Positions 405-27,108 of a DNA stretch of 33,387 nt are shown here, piece by piece. The position numbers and the translations under genes are program-made. Every line of letters starts with the position of its first letter. The first letter of the stretch is position 1. Under the pieces are notes generated by a model that made no database searches, had not been told where the DNA came from, and saw only the letters and a list, made by a program, of their open reading frames with translations. This DNA is from Promethearchaeia archaeon (GTDB lineage Archaea > Asgardarchaeota > Lokiarchaeia > Sigyniarchaeales > SOKP01), in assembly GCA_029856235.1 (NCBI GenBank), contig JAHQWP010000095.1, positions 1 through 33,387 of the forward strand, written 5' to 3'.

Positions 405-803
405 TTATTCTGACCGCCACAATCCGTGGAGGTTGCAATACTCCCTAGCAACGAGACCTGTAGTATCAGCAACTACAAAAGTTGCTTTAGGTTCCATTCC
501 TGGAGCTAACATTTGTCTCTTATAGCAGTTATCTTTGCAGATTAATTCAATCCACATAATAAAATGCTCTTCTGTCATAGGGTGTGGTGTTCCCATCGAA
601 ATACCAACATCAACGGTAACCTTATTACCATCAATCGTTATTTTAGGAACGTGTTTTTCACCCTTCCAATCAGCGGTTTTTTCTTCCATTAAAACCATAG
701 GTTGTCCGCAACAGATTGTTTCAGGAACTCCAGAATTGAGAATTTCGACTACTTTACCACAAACTTCACACTTATAAATAGTTTTTTGTTTCATAACCAT
801 CAT
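405..803 (-). CDS. dfx: Desulfoferrodoxin / superoxide reductase (2Fe type)
   Basis: A 132-residue desulfoferrodoxin, which reduces superoxide to hydrogen peroxide in the cytoplasm of anaerobes without producing oxygen. The N-terminal desulforedoxin domain has Cys12, Cys15, Cys31 and Cys32, the CxxC...CC set that binds centre I. The catalytic centre II is complete: His51 (in EKHVP), His74, His80, Cys123 and His126 (CNLH) give the expected four His and one Cys, and Glu49-Lys50 match the conserved EKH substrate loop. The start could be Met1, Met2 or Met4, since the frame opens ATG ATG GTT ATG; the length fits the family either way. Rubrerythrin lies 92 bases upstream in the same direction, so the two may be co-expressed. 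Electrons probably come from rubredoxin. Confidence 0.96.
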   Translation of the reverse strand: MMVMKQKTIYKCEVCGKVVEILNSGVPETICCGQPMVLMEEKTADWKGEKHVPKITIDGNKVTVDVGISMGTPHPMTEEHFIMWIELICKDNCYKRQMLAPGMEPKATFVVADTTGLVAREYCNLHGLWRSE

Positions 804-5436: not shown

Positions 5437-6252
5437 TTAACCTCTATAGTCTAAAACTATCACGACATCAACAAACAGCTCGTAATTCTCGTCTTCGTCG
5501 TTGTCATGTATCAAGACCTTTTCAACTTCATCCAGTTCTCCTTTGACTTCTATAAGTTCTGATTCATGTATTATCTTAACATCCGAGTGCTTTAATTCTT
5601 TCCTTACTTCGACGTTACCGGGAATAGATTTTGCTGATGTCACTACAATTACCCGTCCAGTATATTCCGTTAACTTTACTGCAAGCGCTAACGATTCATC
5701 TCCAGAATCAACTACTAAGATTCTTTTCTCTCTAAGTTCCTCTAAATCAGCGGGAATCTGATCATAAACGCCCTTTCCAATAAACTTTTCAATTCCTAGT
5801 ATTACTCTAACACCTAGTTGACATGAAGTTACAACTTCTACTTCTGGATTCGTACCTAAGCGGTAGTTGTCAATTGCAGCCTGCAACGCGTCAGCAGCAA
5901 GATTCGAACAATGCATTTTAATAGGTGGGAGCCCGTCTAATTCATTGGCTACATCTTGTCTTGTGATCATGTAAGCTTCATCAAGAGTCATTCCTTTTGC
6001 CATTTCAGTTACCATAGAAGATGTTGCAACCGCGCTCCCGCATCCGAAGGTCTTAAATTTAATATCATCGATAATTTCCTCACCTGCATCATTTTTGCCA
6101 ACTTTTATGTATATCCACATAAGATCTCCACAAACTGGATTCCCAACTTGACCGACCCCATTTGCATCTTCTATTTCACCCACATTACGTGGATTTTTGA
6201 AATGATCTAAAACTTTATCTGAATATTGAGTAGATTTCATATTATTATTCAT
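5437..6252 (-). CDS. iscU: IscU/NifU-like Fe-S scaffold with a TrxB-like C-terminal extension
   Basis: A 271-residue protein, about twice the length of a normal IscU. Residues 5-160 are an IscU scaffold with all cluster ligands: Cys41 with Asp43 (PVCGD), Cys71 (FGCGSA), and His114-Cys115 (MHCS). It would assemble [2Fe-2S] or [4Fe-4S] clusters. Residues 175-271 do not belong to IscU. They resemble the NAD(P)H-binding half of thioredoxin reductase: a beta strand ILVV, then LALAVKLTEYTGRVIVVTS, then a segment ending ELFVDVVIVLDYRG that matches the end of that domain. The usual GGGDSA loop is degraded to DSGDES (182-187), so nucleotide binding may be lost. No CxxC is present. A Shine-Dalgarno (GAGGTGA, 6262-6268) inside the end of the upstream iscS gene and a 4-base gap show tight coupling to it. 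Met5 is an alternative start. Confidence 0.93.
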   Translation of the reverse strand: MNNNMKSTQYSDKVLDHFKNPRNVGEIEDANGVGQVGNPVCGDLMWIYIKVGKNDAGEEIIDDIKFKTFGCGSAVATSSMVTEMAKGMTLDEAYMITRQDVANELDGLPPIKMHCSNLAADALQAAIDNYRLGTNPEVEVVTSCQLGVRVILGIEKFIGKGVYDQIPADLEELREKRILVVDSGDESLALAVKLTEYTGRVIVVTSAKSIPGNVEVRKELKHSDVKIIHESELIEVKGELDEVEKVLIHDNDEDENYELFVDVVIVLDYRG

Positions 6253-6256
6253 ATTA

Positions 6257-7447
6257 TTATTTCACCTCTTCATTTTTCTTGAAAAAATCAGAAGGCGTTA
6301 AAGGCGACAACTTTCTCAATCTTATTACTTGATCGGGTAATACTTCTAAAAGTTTATCTATGTCAGTTTCACGAGTTGTTCTACCCAAAGAAACTAATAG
6401 ACTTCCATGCGCTTCTTCGTGAAGAAGTCCCATAGCAATTAGTGTGTGGGATGGTTCTAATGTTTTTGAACTGCAAGCTGAACCCGTAGCGGCAGCAATG
6501 TTGTTTTCTTTTAAGGTAAGAATTAACGATTCTCCCTCGATATAATCAAATCTAAAATTTGCGTTGTGAGGGGTCCTTTTTTCAGGGTGTCCGTTTAAAT
6601 ACGATTTAGGGATTGATTCTAAGACGTTTTTAATTAACTTGTCTCTTAATTTTTTTAACTTTTCTGATTCTGTTGGCATTTCTTCTTTCATGATTTCAGC
6701 AGCTTTTGCGAATCCTACGATCCCTGGAATATTTTCAGAGCCTGACCTAAACCCTCTCTCTTGCCCGCCCCCAATTATTATAGGGTTTACTCTCACTCCT
6801 TTTTTCATGTAAAGCGCGCCAACTCCCCGCGGTCCATAAATATCGTTTGATGATAATGTGATAAGATCGATTGGAACTTTTTGAACGTCAATAGGAAGAA
6901 CGCTTTCGCTTGCTACTGCGTCAGTATGGAATAAAATTCCCTTTTCTTGAGCAAGTTTACTTATCTCAGCTGTTGGTTGTACTGAACCAACTTCATTACT
7001 CGCAGTAGATATTGAAATTAGAATCGTCTCGTCGGTAATATACCTTTCAAGTTTGTCTAATCGGACAATACCAAACCGATCTACAGGAACTCTGCTAACT
7101 TTAAATCCCTGTTTTTCAAGATACTTGCCAATATTTAAGATAGAGATATGCTCGATTTCAGAAATAATTACGTGGTTCCCCTTTTTTTTCTGTCTCATAG
7201 TCGCTCCGATTATACCTAAGTTATTAGATTCCGTAGCTCCTGAAGTAAAAATGATATCAGCGCGATTAGGTGCATTCACAAAATTAGCAACTTTTTCCCG
7301 TGATTTCTCTAATATATCAGTAGCTATATCACCATCACAATGTAACGAAGCAGGATTAGCAAATTTATCGTTAAAATATGACATCATTTCAGATACTACT
7401 CTTTCGTCAACAGGTTTTGCAGCTTGATTATCTAAATATATACTCAT
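6257..7447 (-). CDS. iscS: IscS/NifS-family protein lacking the PLP lysine
   Basis: A 396-residue class V aminotransferase-fold protein of the IscS/NifS group. Conserved elements are present: GATESNN (70-76), His100 (EIEH), Asn151 in the SNEVGSVQP stretch, Asp176 (HTDA), GGGQERGFRSG (226-236), and the mobile persulfide loop with Cys325 (TGSACSSKTLEPSH). The PLP-binding His-Lys of the SxHKxYGPKG motif is replaced by Asn201-Asp202 (SSNDIYGPRG), and the Gln expected three residues after Asp176 is Ala179. Without the lysine no internal aldimine can form, so cysteine desulfurase activity is unlikely. From memory, the Archaeoglobus fulgidus IscS has an Asp at the same position and lacks desulfurase activity, yet binds a cluster together with IscU through its loop Cys; the same is likely here. 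The Shine-Dalgarno AGAGG (7456-7460) supports the start. The gene is second in the tusA-iscS-iscU operon. Confidence 0.92.
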   Translation of the reverse strand: MSIYLDNQAAKPVDERVVSEMMSYFNDKFANPASLHCDGDIATDILEKSREKVANFVNAPNRADIIFTSGATESNNLGIIGATMRQKKKGNHVIISEIEHISILNIGKYLEKQGFKVSRVPVDRFGIVRLDKLERYITDETILISISTASNEVGSVQPTAEISKLAQEKGILFHTDAVASESVLPIDVQKVPIDLITLSSNDIYGPRGVGALYMKKGVRVNPIIIGGGQERGFRSGSENIPGIVGFAKAAEIMKEEMPTESEKLKKLRDKLIKNVLESIPKSYLNGHPEKRTPHNANFRFDYIEGESLILTLKENNIAAATGSACSSKTLEPSHTLIAMGLLHEEAHGSLLVSLGRTTRETDIDKLLEVLPDQVIRLRKLSPLTPSDFFKKNEEVK

Positions 7448-7478: not shown

Positions 7479-7730
7479 TCATTTTTTTTTCTTGAAGTAA
7501 AATATCAGATCCTCTCCGTCCTTCAAAAATTCGACTAATTCTGTTCCCGTTCTTTTTGCCCACCTTGATAAATCCTCTTCCGCTGCTGGATCGTCAGCTA
7601 ACACTTTGAAACATTGACCAACATCCAGAGTTTCTGAAAAATTTCTTACTTCAAACAATGGCTCTGGACAAAATAAACCTCTCGTATCCAATTCTTCGTC
7701 GTATTCGATTTCCATTTTCTCTCCAGACAT
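7479..7730 (-). CDS. tusA: TusA-family sulfur carrier
   Basis: An 83-residue TusA/SirA-like protein. The family signature is present as LFCPEPL with Cys21 as persulfide carrier, followed by the usual alpha/beta sequence and a last strand near residues 73-80. Such proteins hand sulfane sulfur between partners in tRNA thiolation, molybdopterin synthesis or sulfur oxidation. Here the gene leads an operon with iscS (31-base gap) and iscU, and a second TusA domain sits in the fusion protein downstream. It is therefore a candidate for delivering sulfur to the IscS/IscU pair, in place of cysteine desulfuration. That role is inferred. Met6 is an alternative start. Confidence 0.9.
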   Translation of the reverse strand: MSGEKMEIEYDEELDTRGLFCPEPLFEVRNFSETLDVGQCFKVLADDPAAEEDLSRWAKRTGTELVEFLKDGEDLIFYFKKKK

Positions 7731-23469: not shown

Positions 23470-26400
23470 ATGAGAAAGCTAAATATTGATTTTTTAATCG
23501 ATACTCCAGTAGAAAGATTGGTAGAAAATATAGAAACTACTTTCAAAAAGTTAATTCAAGAAATTGAATCGTATCTTAATTTAGAACCAATCGAATATGG
23601 TATTGATATATCCATTAAGGATGAAGAAAAGGTTGATTCAAAATTACAAACAGATATTTTTTCCATAGATGTGGATAGGTTTTTTGACAAAGGTGTGTTA
23701 TATGTCCATATTTATCGCAAATTCTATAGATTTGTCCCAATTATTCTATTAAGAGAAGCTTATAAATATTTTATTCCATTACAAGCCTCTCAAATGAAAA
23801 TCATTGATGTATTTATTAACCAGAAAGTGGTTATTGATCTTGAAAAGTTGAAATCAATTAAAGAATGGAATTTGCTCATAGGAGATAAAATGATTGATTA
23901 TGAGTTTATCTCAAGAGAGTATGATCGTTTAGAAAATTTTTTAAAGCGAGAATCCTCTTCAGAAAATGTTGATAGCCCATTCATATTTTTCTTTAAGTAT
24001 ATACGGAGAAATATCCAAATTATTAGTGAAAAAGAAAATGATTTCTTCTTTGAAAATGATTTTTTCAAAGAATACCTATTATATACATCAAAGTCTCTGT
24101 TTAATGATGAGATTATTGAAACTATAAGAGTCCTCGTTAAAATCTTCGATAAAGTTCAATACTATACGGCGTTATTGGATTATCAACATCATTTTAAAGA
24201 ACTCAAAGAACGGGGGTTCATTCAAACCCATCTAAGTCTAAATAAATTTACAGAAAATATGCAATGGATTAAACAATTTAGTACTTTATCTCCTAGTTAT
24301 AAAGTAAATTGGCCCGCATTAAATATTTCCTCAATTAATTGCTATATAAAATTCAATCCAGTTTTAAAACGATCAGACATAAATCAAGTTATTAATGAGT
24401 TGCCTTTTTTTGTCCTCCTTAAGGAATGTAGATATAGTTTCGCTTATGAATTGGATGGTTTTTTCGTTATCCCAAATCAATATTTTGTTGATTTAAAGAA
24501 TTTCTTAAAAAAATTCGAGGATAATGGATATATCCTTCAAATTAAATTGACTCCTCTTGAAAAAACAGAATCTTTTGTCAATTTAAATTATTTTCGAGAA
24601 CACTATCAAGAATATCCATACAAAAAAACCATTATTAATAGAGAGAATAAATTATATGAAGAAAAGTATGAATTAAATAATTCTTTGGATTATGGACAAG
24701 AGGTATACAAATCAAAATTAACGCTTCTCGATTGGTTATTAATTGATAGAATTCGTAATTTTTCCCCCACAGGATTCAATTTTGAAAGAAGAGCTGGAAC
24801 GCTTAAAATAATGAAGTCAGATCTTATTAACGAGGTTATTAGTCAAAGGAAATTTATCACTAACTTAAAATCTAATTTGTTAATAATTCATTCCTCATCA
24901 GAACTCAGAGATTCTTTTTTAGAATTCTTAAAAACAAACGAATCGTTTGGATTTTTTTTTATAAAAAATATGCTCTCTAAATATATAATTACATTTGATT
25001 TAATTAAAGAAATTCTAACAAGAAATCCTTCTATCAATAGTGTCTTCGAATTTCTTACATATATAAAAGAACACGGTATTTCAAATTCAATTGATAATAA
25101 CATTACTTTTAATACTCCGATGATAAGAGGAATGATATTTAAAAAATTCCTCCCCTTATATTTTGAGTCAAAGGAGAGTTTTAAAAAAGAAATAAATAAA
25201 TTTAACAATTTCTTTAAAATCTTTAGCACTTGTTACGACTTGAAAATTTTTAACTTACAATCTATTCGAATGATTGTAAAAAATAAATCTTTGCTAGACA
25301 CAATTTTTAAATCAAAAGAAAAGAAATTAAAAAGCTCTTATGAAAACTTTGAATTATCCGATATAACATTTCAGTTGATTGAAGACAAGTTAGAAAACTT
25401 CTTAAATAACGATCCACCTATAATTAAACCTAATTTGTTTATAAATATCCAACACTCTATAACACAATATTTTGCCCTATTACTAAAAAATAATGCGGAA
25501 ACTGTAGAAAATCTTAAAAAAGTGTCGTATATTGCCAAAAGAATGGCGCTTACTCATAATAATCTATTGTATGCGGGTTTATTTCTTCCATATTTAAATA
25601 GCGAAGAAAAGGGCATACTTATTTCAATATTCAAAAATATTTTTAAGGATAATTTAATAAGCGTTAAAAGATATGAGTGGAGTGGTCTTCAGAGATCTTT
25701 TTCACGGAAAGATTTTTACGATATGGAACAAAAAGAATTTTTTTACACTAAAGATATCTTTGGACAGTATTATTTGAACGTTAAAAGTCTTTTGGGTGAA
25801 GCGCAAAAACCACTCCCAGAAGCAAAAACAATACAACAAAATAAATTTTGGTCAAGAGAGAATAATCTATCTTATCTTATTAAATCTGTTGAGAATCGCA
25901 TTAGAGAGGAACATGTAGATTTAAGCGTAAAAGAATTACATAATCTTTTTGAATTTAACAATAAGTTAAATGAATCCTTATTAAATCTTAGTGAGTTTAA
26001 AAAATCCCAAGAAAAATTCTTCTTCAAAAATTTCATTAAATCAATCGATTTTATACCCTCGTTTCAGAATTTTGGTATGAGTCAGTATTTATTATATTTT
26101 TATCCAACAGATATTAACAACATTGATTTTAAGCTTTTAATGAACAACTCGTTCCAATCGGTTTGTTTCCCCGCACAGTTTGATAACTCTAATTCTTTTT
26201 TATTCCAATACATTTTTCCATATCGCAATCCCGGCATATCTTCGTATTTAAATTGGTTAACCAAATCGAAAAAAATAATCAGAGAATATTGTTTATTCTT
26301 CATTAAAAAAGTATATCAAATTTTGCATTTTAATTATAATCTAAGTTCAGATGGTTGGGATCTAGACCCAAATCGTTTTAAGATATATTTCCAAAATATT

Positions 26401-27108
26401 TTGTTTAATCCTGATTATAAAGTCCAAATTCCTGATTTAAAGGAGTTCAATATAGGGGATTTAAACCTTTCAAATTATATTGGACCTAATTCCTCTGAGT
26501 TTAAAGCACTATCTCAGATTTATAATTGGAAACCATTAGATATAAAATCTTACTTAACTAAGCGCTACTTTAAAATAATTAGTAGTATAACTGACCTGTT
26601 AAAAAAGGGATTGATATTTCCGTATATATCTTTAAAGAATCTAGATTTAGTTGAAGAGATTACTATAATTTTACCGAATGTTAAAAAGGAATTAAACGAG
26701 ACAATTTTTAAAATTTTTAGCTTTTTTAACATCGGATTTATTCATGAAATGGAAGGAGAATATTACATTCATGGATTTGATGAGGTAGTAAAATTCGAAA
26801 ACGGTATTATGATTAAGTTATATTTTCCCGATTGTCAATTCGACGAGTTCGAGAAACTTTTCGATTTGTTATTTGAATACATAGGAATTGATCATTATTT
26901 AATTTTAAACGATTTAGTAGATGGAAAAAATTTAATTAAATCTACTTTTCAAAGTGCGAAATTCATGGACTCCTATAACCCTTTAACCAACCTTATTTGG
27001 AACGACAAGGATAAAAGGTGGCGTAACCATAAACTTTTTGACGAAAATTTTAAGCCTGTTTATCCTGATTTATTCTACGGAAAAAAAAATTACGATTTAG
27101 AGTCCTAA
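23470..27108 (+). CDS. Very large uncharacterised protein (1212 residues)
   Basis: I do not recognise this protein. It has no signal peptide, no convincing membrane segment, no Walker motif, and no zinc-binding or nuclease signature. It is rich in Lys, Asn, Phe, Ile and Leu with a mixed alpha/beta look. Residues 1-130 look like a compact domain, including FYRFVPIILLREAYKYFIP (about 80-98), reminiscent of but lacking the HExxH of metalloproteases. Two stretches look alike by eye: near 320-345 (SFAYELDGFFVIPNQ) and near 1110-1130 (GFIHEMEGEYYIHGF), which could be related small domains. The C-terminus has a Trp/Tyr-rich tail (WRNHKLFDENFKPVYPDLFY). It has its own promoter and Shine-Dalgarno and the next + strand gene starts 94 bases later. 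Its uninterrupted length and normal codon use show it is a real gene, probably lineage-specific. Confidence 0.85.
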   Translation: MRKLNIDFLIDTPVERLVENIETTFKKLIQEIESYLNLEPIEYGIDISIKDEEKVDSKLQTDIFSIDVDRFFDKGVLYVHIYRKFYRFVPIILLREAYKYFIPLQASQMKIIDVFINQKVVIDLEKLKSIKEWNLLIGDKMIDYEFISREYDRLENFLKRESSSENVDSPFIFFFKYIRRNIQIISEKENDFFFENDFFKEYLLYTSKSLFNDEIIETIRVLVKIFDKVQYYTALLDYQHHFKELKERGFIQTHLSLNKFTENMQWIKQFSTLSPSYKVNWPALNISSINCYIKFNPVLKRSDINQVINELPFFVLLKECRYSFAYELDGFFVIPNQYFVDLKNFLKKFEDNGYILQIKLTPLEKTESFVNLNYFREHYQEYPYKKTIINRENKLYEEKYELNNSLDYGQEVYKSKLTLLDWLLIDRIRNFSPTGFNFERRAGTLKIMKSDLINEVISQRKFITNLKSNLLIIHSSSELRDSFLEFLKTNESFGFFFIKNMLSKYIITFDLIKEILTRNPSINSVFEFLTYIKEHGISNSIDNNITFNTPMIRGMIFKKFLPLYFESKESFKKEINKFNNFFKIFSTCYDLKIFNLQSIRMIVKNKSLLDTIFKSKEKKLKSSYENFELSDITFQLIEDKLENFLNNDPPIIKPNLFINIQHSITQYFALLLKNNAETVENLKKVSYIAKRMALTHNNLLYAGLFLPYLNSEEKGILISIFKNIFKDNLISVKRYEWSGLQRSFSRKDFYDMEQKEFFYTKDIFGQYYLNVKSLLGEAQKPLPEAKTIQQNKFWSRENNLSYLIKSVENRIREEHVDLSVKELHNLFEFNNKLNESLLNLSEFKKSQEKFFFKNFIKSIDFIPSFQNFGMSQYLLYFYPTDINNIDFKLLMNNSFQSVCFPAQFDNSNSFLFQYIFPYRNPGISSYLNWLTKSKKIIREYCLFFIKKVYQILHFNYNLSSDGWDLDPNRFKIYFQNILFNPDYKVQIPDLKEFNIGDLNLSNYIGPNSSEFKALSQIYNWKPLDIKSYLTKRYFKIISSITDLLKKGLIFPYISLKNLDLVEEITIILPNVKKELNETIFKIFSFFNIGFIHEMEGEYYIHGFDEVVKFENGIMIKLYFPDCQFDEFEKLFDLLFEYIGIDHYLILNDLVDGKNLIKSTFQSAKFMDSYNPLTNLIWNDKDKRWRNHKLFDENFKPVYPDLFYGKKNYDLES

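Follow-up and report, generated by a model that had tools for sequence, protein, structure and literature searches.

The window analysed here, a stretch of 33,387 nucleotides from a Promethearchaeia archaeon, carries an iscS-like gene in which the lysine that binds PLP in cysteine desulfurases has been replaced, as it has been throughout a family found widely in archaea and in some bacteria. To judge from its residues and from a studied relative, the product is almost certainly not a cysteine desulfurase, and it very probably acts with IscU in cluster assembly. We favour the reading that it is a conserved pseudo-desulfurase platform, whose Cys325 would serve as a ligand and/or persulfide acceptor and whose sulfur would arrive via TusA/DsrE or as sulfide. 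Gene context gives a slightly better than even chance to one part of this reading, that sulfur reaches the protein through a TusA/DsrE relay. The features concerned are collected in Table 1.

Table 1. Features of the window that bear on the lysine-less IscS
Feature	Position	Strand	Basis
CoA-disulfide-reductase-like + rhodanese + TusA + rhodanese fusion, 808 aa	2854..5280	-	Profile matches
iscU fusion gene, 271 aa	5437..6252	-	Profile matches
Degenerate thioredoxin-reductase NADPH domain, residues 153-265	5458..5796	-	Profile, phmmer, Foldseek
NifU_N/IscU domain with C41, D43, C71, C115	5860..6228	-	PF01592 search and alignment
iscS-like gene, 396 aa, lysine-less, A. fulgidus IscS2 type	6257..7447	-	ORF translation and profile/PDB matches
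Cys325 codon, persulfide or ligand cysteine	6473..6475	-	Translation; kept in 33/33 lysine-less relatives
Codons AAC GAT (Asn201-Asp202), place of His-Lys	6842..6847	-	Read from DNA
Ala179 codon, place of the PLP-contacting Gln	6911..6913	-	Translation and alignment
tusA, 83 aa, CPxP cysteine kept	7479..7730	-	PF01206, E 2.2e-18; alignment

Translation bears out all the residues named in the original prediction (Asn201-Asp202 with their AAC GAT codons, Ala179 and Cys325). The desulfurase motif S-x-H-K-x-Y-G-P reads SSNDIYGPRG, and D176-A-V-A179 ends in Ala where Gln is expected. The protein thus has Asp202 for the Lys of the PLP internal aldimine, and Asn201 and Ala179 for the PLP-contacting His and Gln. 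H100 and D176 are present, and the active-site Cys325 of the mobile loop sits within GSACSSKTLEPSH. Homology to the aminotransferase class V family is full-length (PF00266, 259.6 bits, 371/371 positions covered). Among NCBIfam profiles, the protein scores 305.4 bits against NF002806, ‘IscS subfamily cysteine desulfurase’ (cut-off 304), and falls below the cut-offs of both the IscS and the NifS equivalogs. Since a lysine-less gene passes the subfamily cut-off, counts of archaeal desulfurases may be inflated. Judged by these residues, there is good support for a loss of PLP chemistry: with no internal aldimine possible, sulfur would not be taken from cysteine by this protein. The predicted lack of desulfurase activity agrees well with the loss of Lys, His and Gln together and the retention of the persulfide Cys.

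In the window, tusA lies directly upstream of iscS and iscU directly downstream. In many relatives a 122-aa gene of the DsrE family (PF02635, E 6.5e-15) stands between tusA and iscS; the dsrE homologue of the window genome is on a separate contig (C194). Among unique loci that extend 700 bp or more upstream of iscS, tusA precedes 49 of 53 lysine-less iscS genes and none of 80 lysine-bearing ones, and dsrE precedes 30/53 and 0/80, respectively. Downstream iscU is frequent in both groups (48/54 lysine-less, 60/87 lysine-bearing), so that tusA and dsrE are specific to the lysine-less group and iscU is shared. The tusA-linked loci come from MAGs of Asgard and other archaea and of some bacteria, and the CPxP cysteine of TusA and one cysteine of DsrE are invariant (14/14 and 10/10 sequences). 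A richer TusA context had been thought peculiar to this locus, but TusA is the usual neighbour of the lysine-less family. What remains local in the supposedly special context of TusA and rhodanese domains is the rhodanese-bearing CoADR fusion alone. Its gene adjoins the cluster across much of the genus and is absent there in the other families read; its product is probably a local sulfur supplier.

Four Asgard copies depart from the tusA linkage. Two ND copies of one family (L185 and L187) adjoin neither tusA nor dsrE, which counts against the platform and relay. The other two (L186, 1235-2449; L188, 1375-2664; genomes G186 and G194) are second lysine-less paralogues with Arg for Lys and His kept (DAHRIHGPKG); they retain the Gln and the loop Cys and adjoin a plain IscU without TusA. 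Beside the IscS-IscU pair of the window, no chaperone or carrier gene was recognised among the ORFs read. Desulfoferrodoxin-like and rubrerythrin-like genes occur near the lysine-less cluster in the window (405-803 and 896-1480) and in L060, L063 and L072, the last with peroxiredoxin and thioredoxin reductase genes in addition. A tie to oxygen defence is possible, with three loci at hand and lysine-bearing controls drawn largely from other kinds of organism. The window also holds a 1212-aa ORF (23470-27108).

The adjoining IscU is a fusion protein. Its four ligands C41, D43, C71 and C115 are invariant (13/13 sequences), and its residues 153-265 match TIGR01292 and, in a phmmer search of the PDB (2.3e-5), the NADPH domain of thioredoxin reductase. 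In its AlphaFold model (mean pLDDT 79.6), Foldseek matches the first part to the IscU of 4eb5_C (68% identity) and the remainder to thioredoxin-reductase-like proteins (2zbw). The glycine motif of the C-terminal domain reads DSGDES for GGGDSA and the CxxC is absent; catalysis by this domain is therefore doubtful. Fusions of IscU with a whole thioredoxin-reductase-like flavoprotein, also with the CxxC absent, are found in ANME-2/Methanosarcinales records (L067, 7127-8512; L068, 4383-5747) and in the Asgard genome G115 (L151, 216-1580), and in genome G116 (L145) IscU and the flavoprotein are adjoining separate genes. The Lokiarchaeal domain may well be a remnant of the whole flavoprotein. The 528-aa IscU frame of another locus (L164; genome G178, contig C12) is split exactly at the first ligand cysteine by an insert, about 390 residues long and intein-like, with the borders GNPV / CLIPETLIH...CLHN / CGD.

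In the scheme we propose, lysine-less IscS would offer IscU a docking platform for cluster assembly within a dedicated ISC module, tusA - [dsrE] - iscS - iscU. Homology with the A. fulgidus complex suggests both the pairing with IscU and a role for Cys325 as a ligand of the cluster; the same residue might also, or instead, accept persulfide sulfur. The source would be free sulfide or sulfane sulfur that TusA and DsrE relay to IscS, and in the window genome the CoADR-rhodanese-TusA fusion would perhaps be a further carrier of sulfane sulfur. A more specific version can be advanced tentatively, at somewhat less than even chances. In an ancient module, TusA/DsrE would pass sulfane sulfur to the Cys of lysine-less IscS and thence to IscU, and the IscU-bound thioredoxin-reductase-like flavoprotein would give electrons. 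This donor would have remained complete in ANME-2 and in one Asgard genus, and been reduced in Lokiarchaeia and Thorarchaeota.

TusA and DsrE could, however, serve another pathway. In the main alternative, lysine-less IscS gives a Cys ligand and shapes the IscU site, free sulfide is the sulfur, and TusA/DsrE are merely co-transcribed. Such a role is in line with the statement that A. fulgidus IscS contributes a ligand rather than sulfur (PMC7585200), and with the use of sulfide for Fe-S assembly by some anaerobic archaea (PMC7585200; SMS in PMC12192291). The tie of tusA and dsrE to lysine-less and not to lysine-bearing iscS, across very wide divergence, argues against it, and we hold it rather unlikely, as we do the service of TusA/DsrE in tRNA thiolation or sulfur redox that it would entail.

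How this tie is to be read depends on the phylogeny. In an alignment of 63 rows (30 lysine-bearing and 33 lysine-less), position 202 holds K in every lysine-bearing row (30/30) and D, E, S or R in every lysine-less one (33/33). Position 201 is H in the lysine-bearing rows, whereas 30 of the lysine-less ones have N, 1 has W and 2 have H, and position 179 is Q in the lysine-bearing rows and mostly A in the others. Cys325 is present in 63/63. With these trait columns masked, one change separates the two kinds on the tree; as to a common origin with A. fulgidus IscS2, the branch concerned has all the lysine-less rows to one side but is weak (45/85). The window protein belongs to a 17-row lysine-less clade (support 100/98) that includes Stahlbacterial, Actinobacterial and Thorarchaeotal proteins. 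Repeated coupling of lysine loss with tusA is not claimed, an independent-pairs test having yielded a single pair. Lysine loss and tusA linkage are each close to one event on the tree, which indicates very long co-retention and joint transfer, and this counts against the platform and relay.

The pocket residues T72, H100, D176 and R356 are mostly retained in the same alignment. Some PLP or PMP binding is thus possible, a point against the platform, and the protein might be a PLP/PMP enzyme of altered chemistry, which holds the cofactor with no Schiff-base link to Lys and catalyses another reaction or is a weak desulfurase. PMC7585200 lists among its references a 2013 paper on A. fulgidus whose title names an ‘unusual L-cysteine desulfurase’, but the title of a later A. 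fulgidus paper, cited through the same source, denies desulfurase activity. Lys, His and Gln have moreover changed together, and we consider such an enzyme improbable.

A lysine-bearing IscS, which the original prediction had suggested looking for elsewhere in the genome, was indeed found in the same assembly on contig C45; it has SAHKLYGPKG and both the Gln and the Cys. Some 3.4 kb from it, in the same orientation, lies a plain IscU, and contig C180 carries a third, more distant IscU (both PF01592); the idea that the genome's sole IscU is that beside the lysine-less IscS was thus wrong. The two kinds of IscS recur together across the genus. In G030, a genome that is a single contig, one lysine-less copy is found alongside two lysine-bearing ones, so that mixed assemblies do not explain the pairing. 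Lysine-less IscS as an inactive subunit of a mixed dimer, regulating or positioning the lysine-bearing enzyme, would accord with this co-occurrence, but the two are encoded at separate loci, each with its own iscU, and in many Asgard genomes the ND pattern is present but the HK pattern is not; we think it very improbable. It was also rejected that the Asgard families with ND alone have no cysteine desulfurase, as several have high-scoring class-V proteins with SVHKMCGP, which by this motif are taken as SufS-like. One Asgard family has SSHKIHGPKG, which the HK search pattern missed, and SufB/D-like genes are present in 14/16 genomes tested, that of the window included.

The gene and its motif are genuine. 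A 29-base N-D/E pattern occurs once in the window genome and in 116/228 genomes of the Asgard phylum, against zero for a reversed-pattern control, which shows the motif to be more than chance. Orthologues in other MAGs, 94% and 98% identical, have the same residues, making a base-calling error very unlikely, and the dN/dS of 0.045-0.074 between the window gene and its orthologues indicates strong purifying selection. Orthologues of the same order have N-D in nearly all cases, with N-E in one among those first read. Going by MAG labels, the motif is also present, among the matches listed, in records of Lokiarchaeia, Thorarchaeota, Stahlbacteria, Actinobacteria, Hadesarchaea, ANME-2, Methanosarcinales, Thermoplasmatota, Methanocellales and Bacillota, and as the variants N-S in Odinarchaeia and W-D in Methanomethyliaceae; the non-Asgard counts come from one contig scan with at least 80 loci. 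Sequencing error, contamination or a pseudogene, a concern with a MAG of 8.26% estimated contamination, is refuted, with hardly any probability left to it, by the same motif in more than 100 genomes, the low dN/dS and the intact gene cluster.

Previous knowledge of lysine-less IscS amounted to a single set of crystal structures and a remark about one methanogen. It now appears as a family that strong selection has maintained in many lineages of archaea and some of bacteria, and that is linked to two sulfur carriers. In the open literature we found no description of tusA/dsrE with lysine-less IscS, of the breadth of the family or of the IscU-flavoprotein fusion; no priority is claimed for them. 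If the relay holds true, ISC-type cluster assembly would be possible without cysteine, which would bear on the way Fe-S clusters were formed under anoxic, sulfidic conditions and on the sulfur metabolism of Asgard archaea.

The closest known system is that of A. fulgidus. The original prediction was right that A. fulgidus IscS has an Asp at this position, but the contrast it drew with that case is not supported: the top PDB match, IscS2 (4eb5; SSNDIYGPKG), has the same N-D motif at 53% identity to the window protein, which likewise has the Lys replaced and the Cys kept. PDB 4r5f holds the same IscS2 sequence with K in the place of Asp. The two systems (IscS2 and IscS-IscU in 4eb5, 4eb7 and 4hvk) share the SSND-YGP motif, the retained Cys and an IscU that is 68% identical over the IscU domain; they differ in the extra reductase-derived C-terminal domain of the window IscU and in the additional lysine-bearing IscS of the window genome. 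A TusA-like protein, AF_0188, is probably encoded near A. fulgidus iscS1. A. fulgidus IscS is reported to have no desulfurase activity because its Lys is Asp, and to provide a Cys ligand to the cluster on IscU (PMC7585200, 2020). M. acetivorans IscS1 also has no Lys (PMC7585200), and these two precedents place the window protein within a known kind. By description, the M. acetivorans pair IscS1/IscU1 (MA0808/MA0807) is further alike in its unusually large IscU1 (24.2 kDa, against 13.9 for IscU2), and it is accompanied by four genes of unknown function (PMC7585200). The adjoining IscS and IscU genes of the window may also be compared with MIS (MisS/MisU), described as a system of archaea and anaerobes reduced to IscS and IscU (PMC12442378); however, MIS is said to have a cysteine desulfurase (PMC12192291), whereas the window module has no Lys and adds TusA/DsrE. 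The IscS-TusA relay of E. coli brings the same two protein families together. There, the PLP enzyme IscS loads TusA; the window IscS, in contrast, would be unable to produce sulfur by PLP chemistry, and the flow would therefore be the reverse of that in E. coli.
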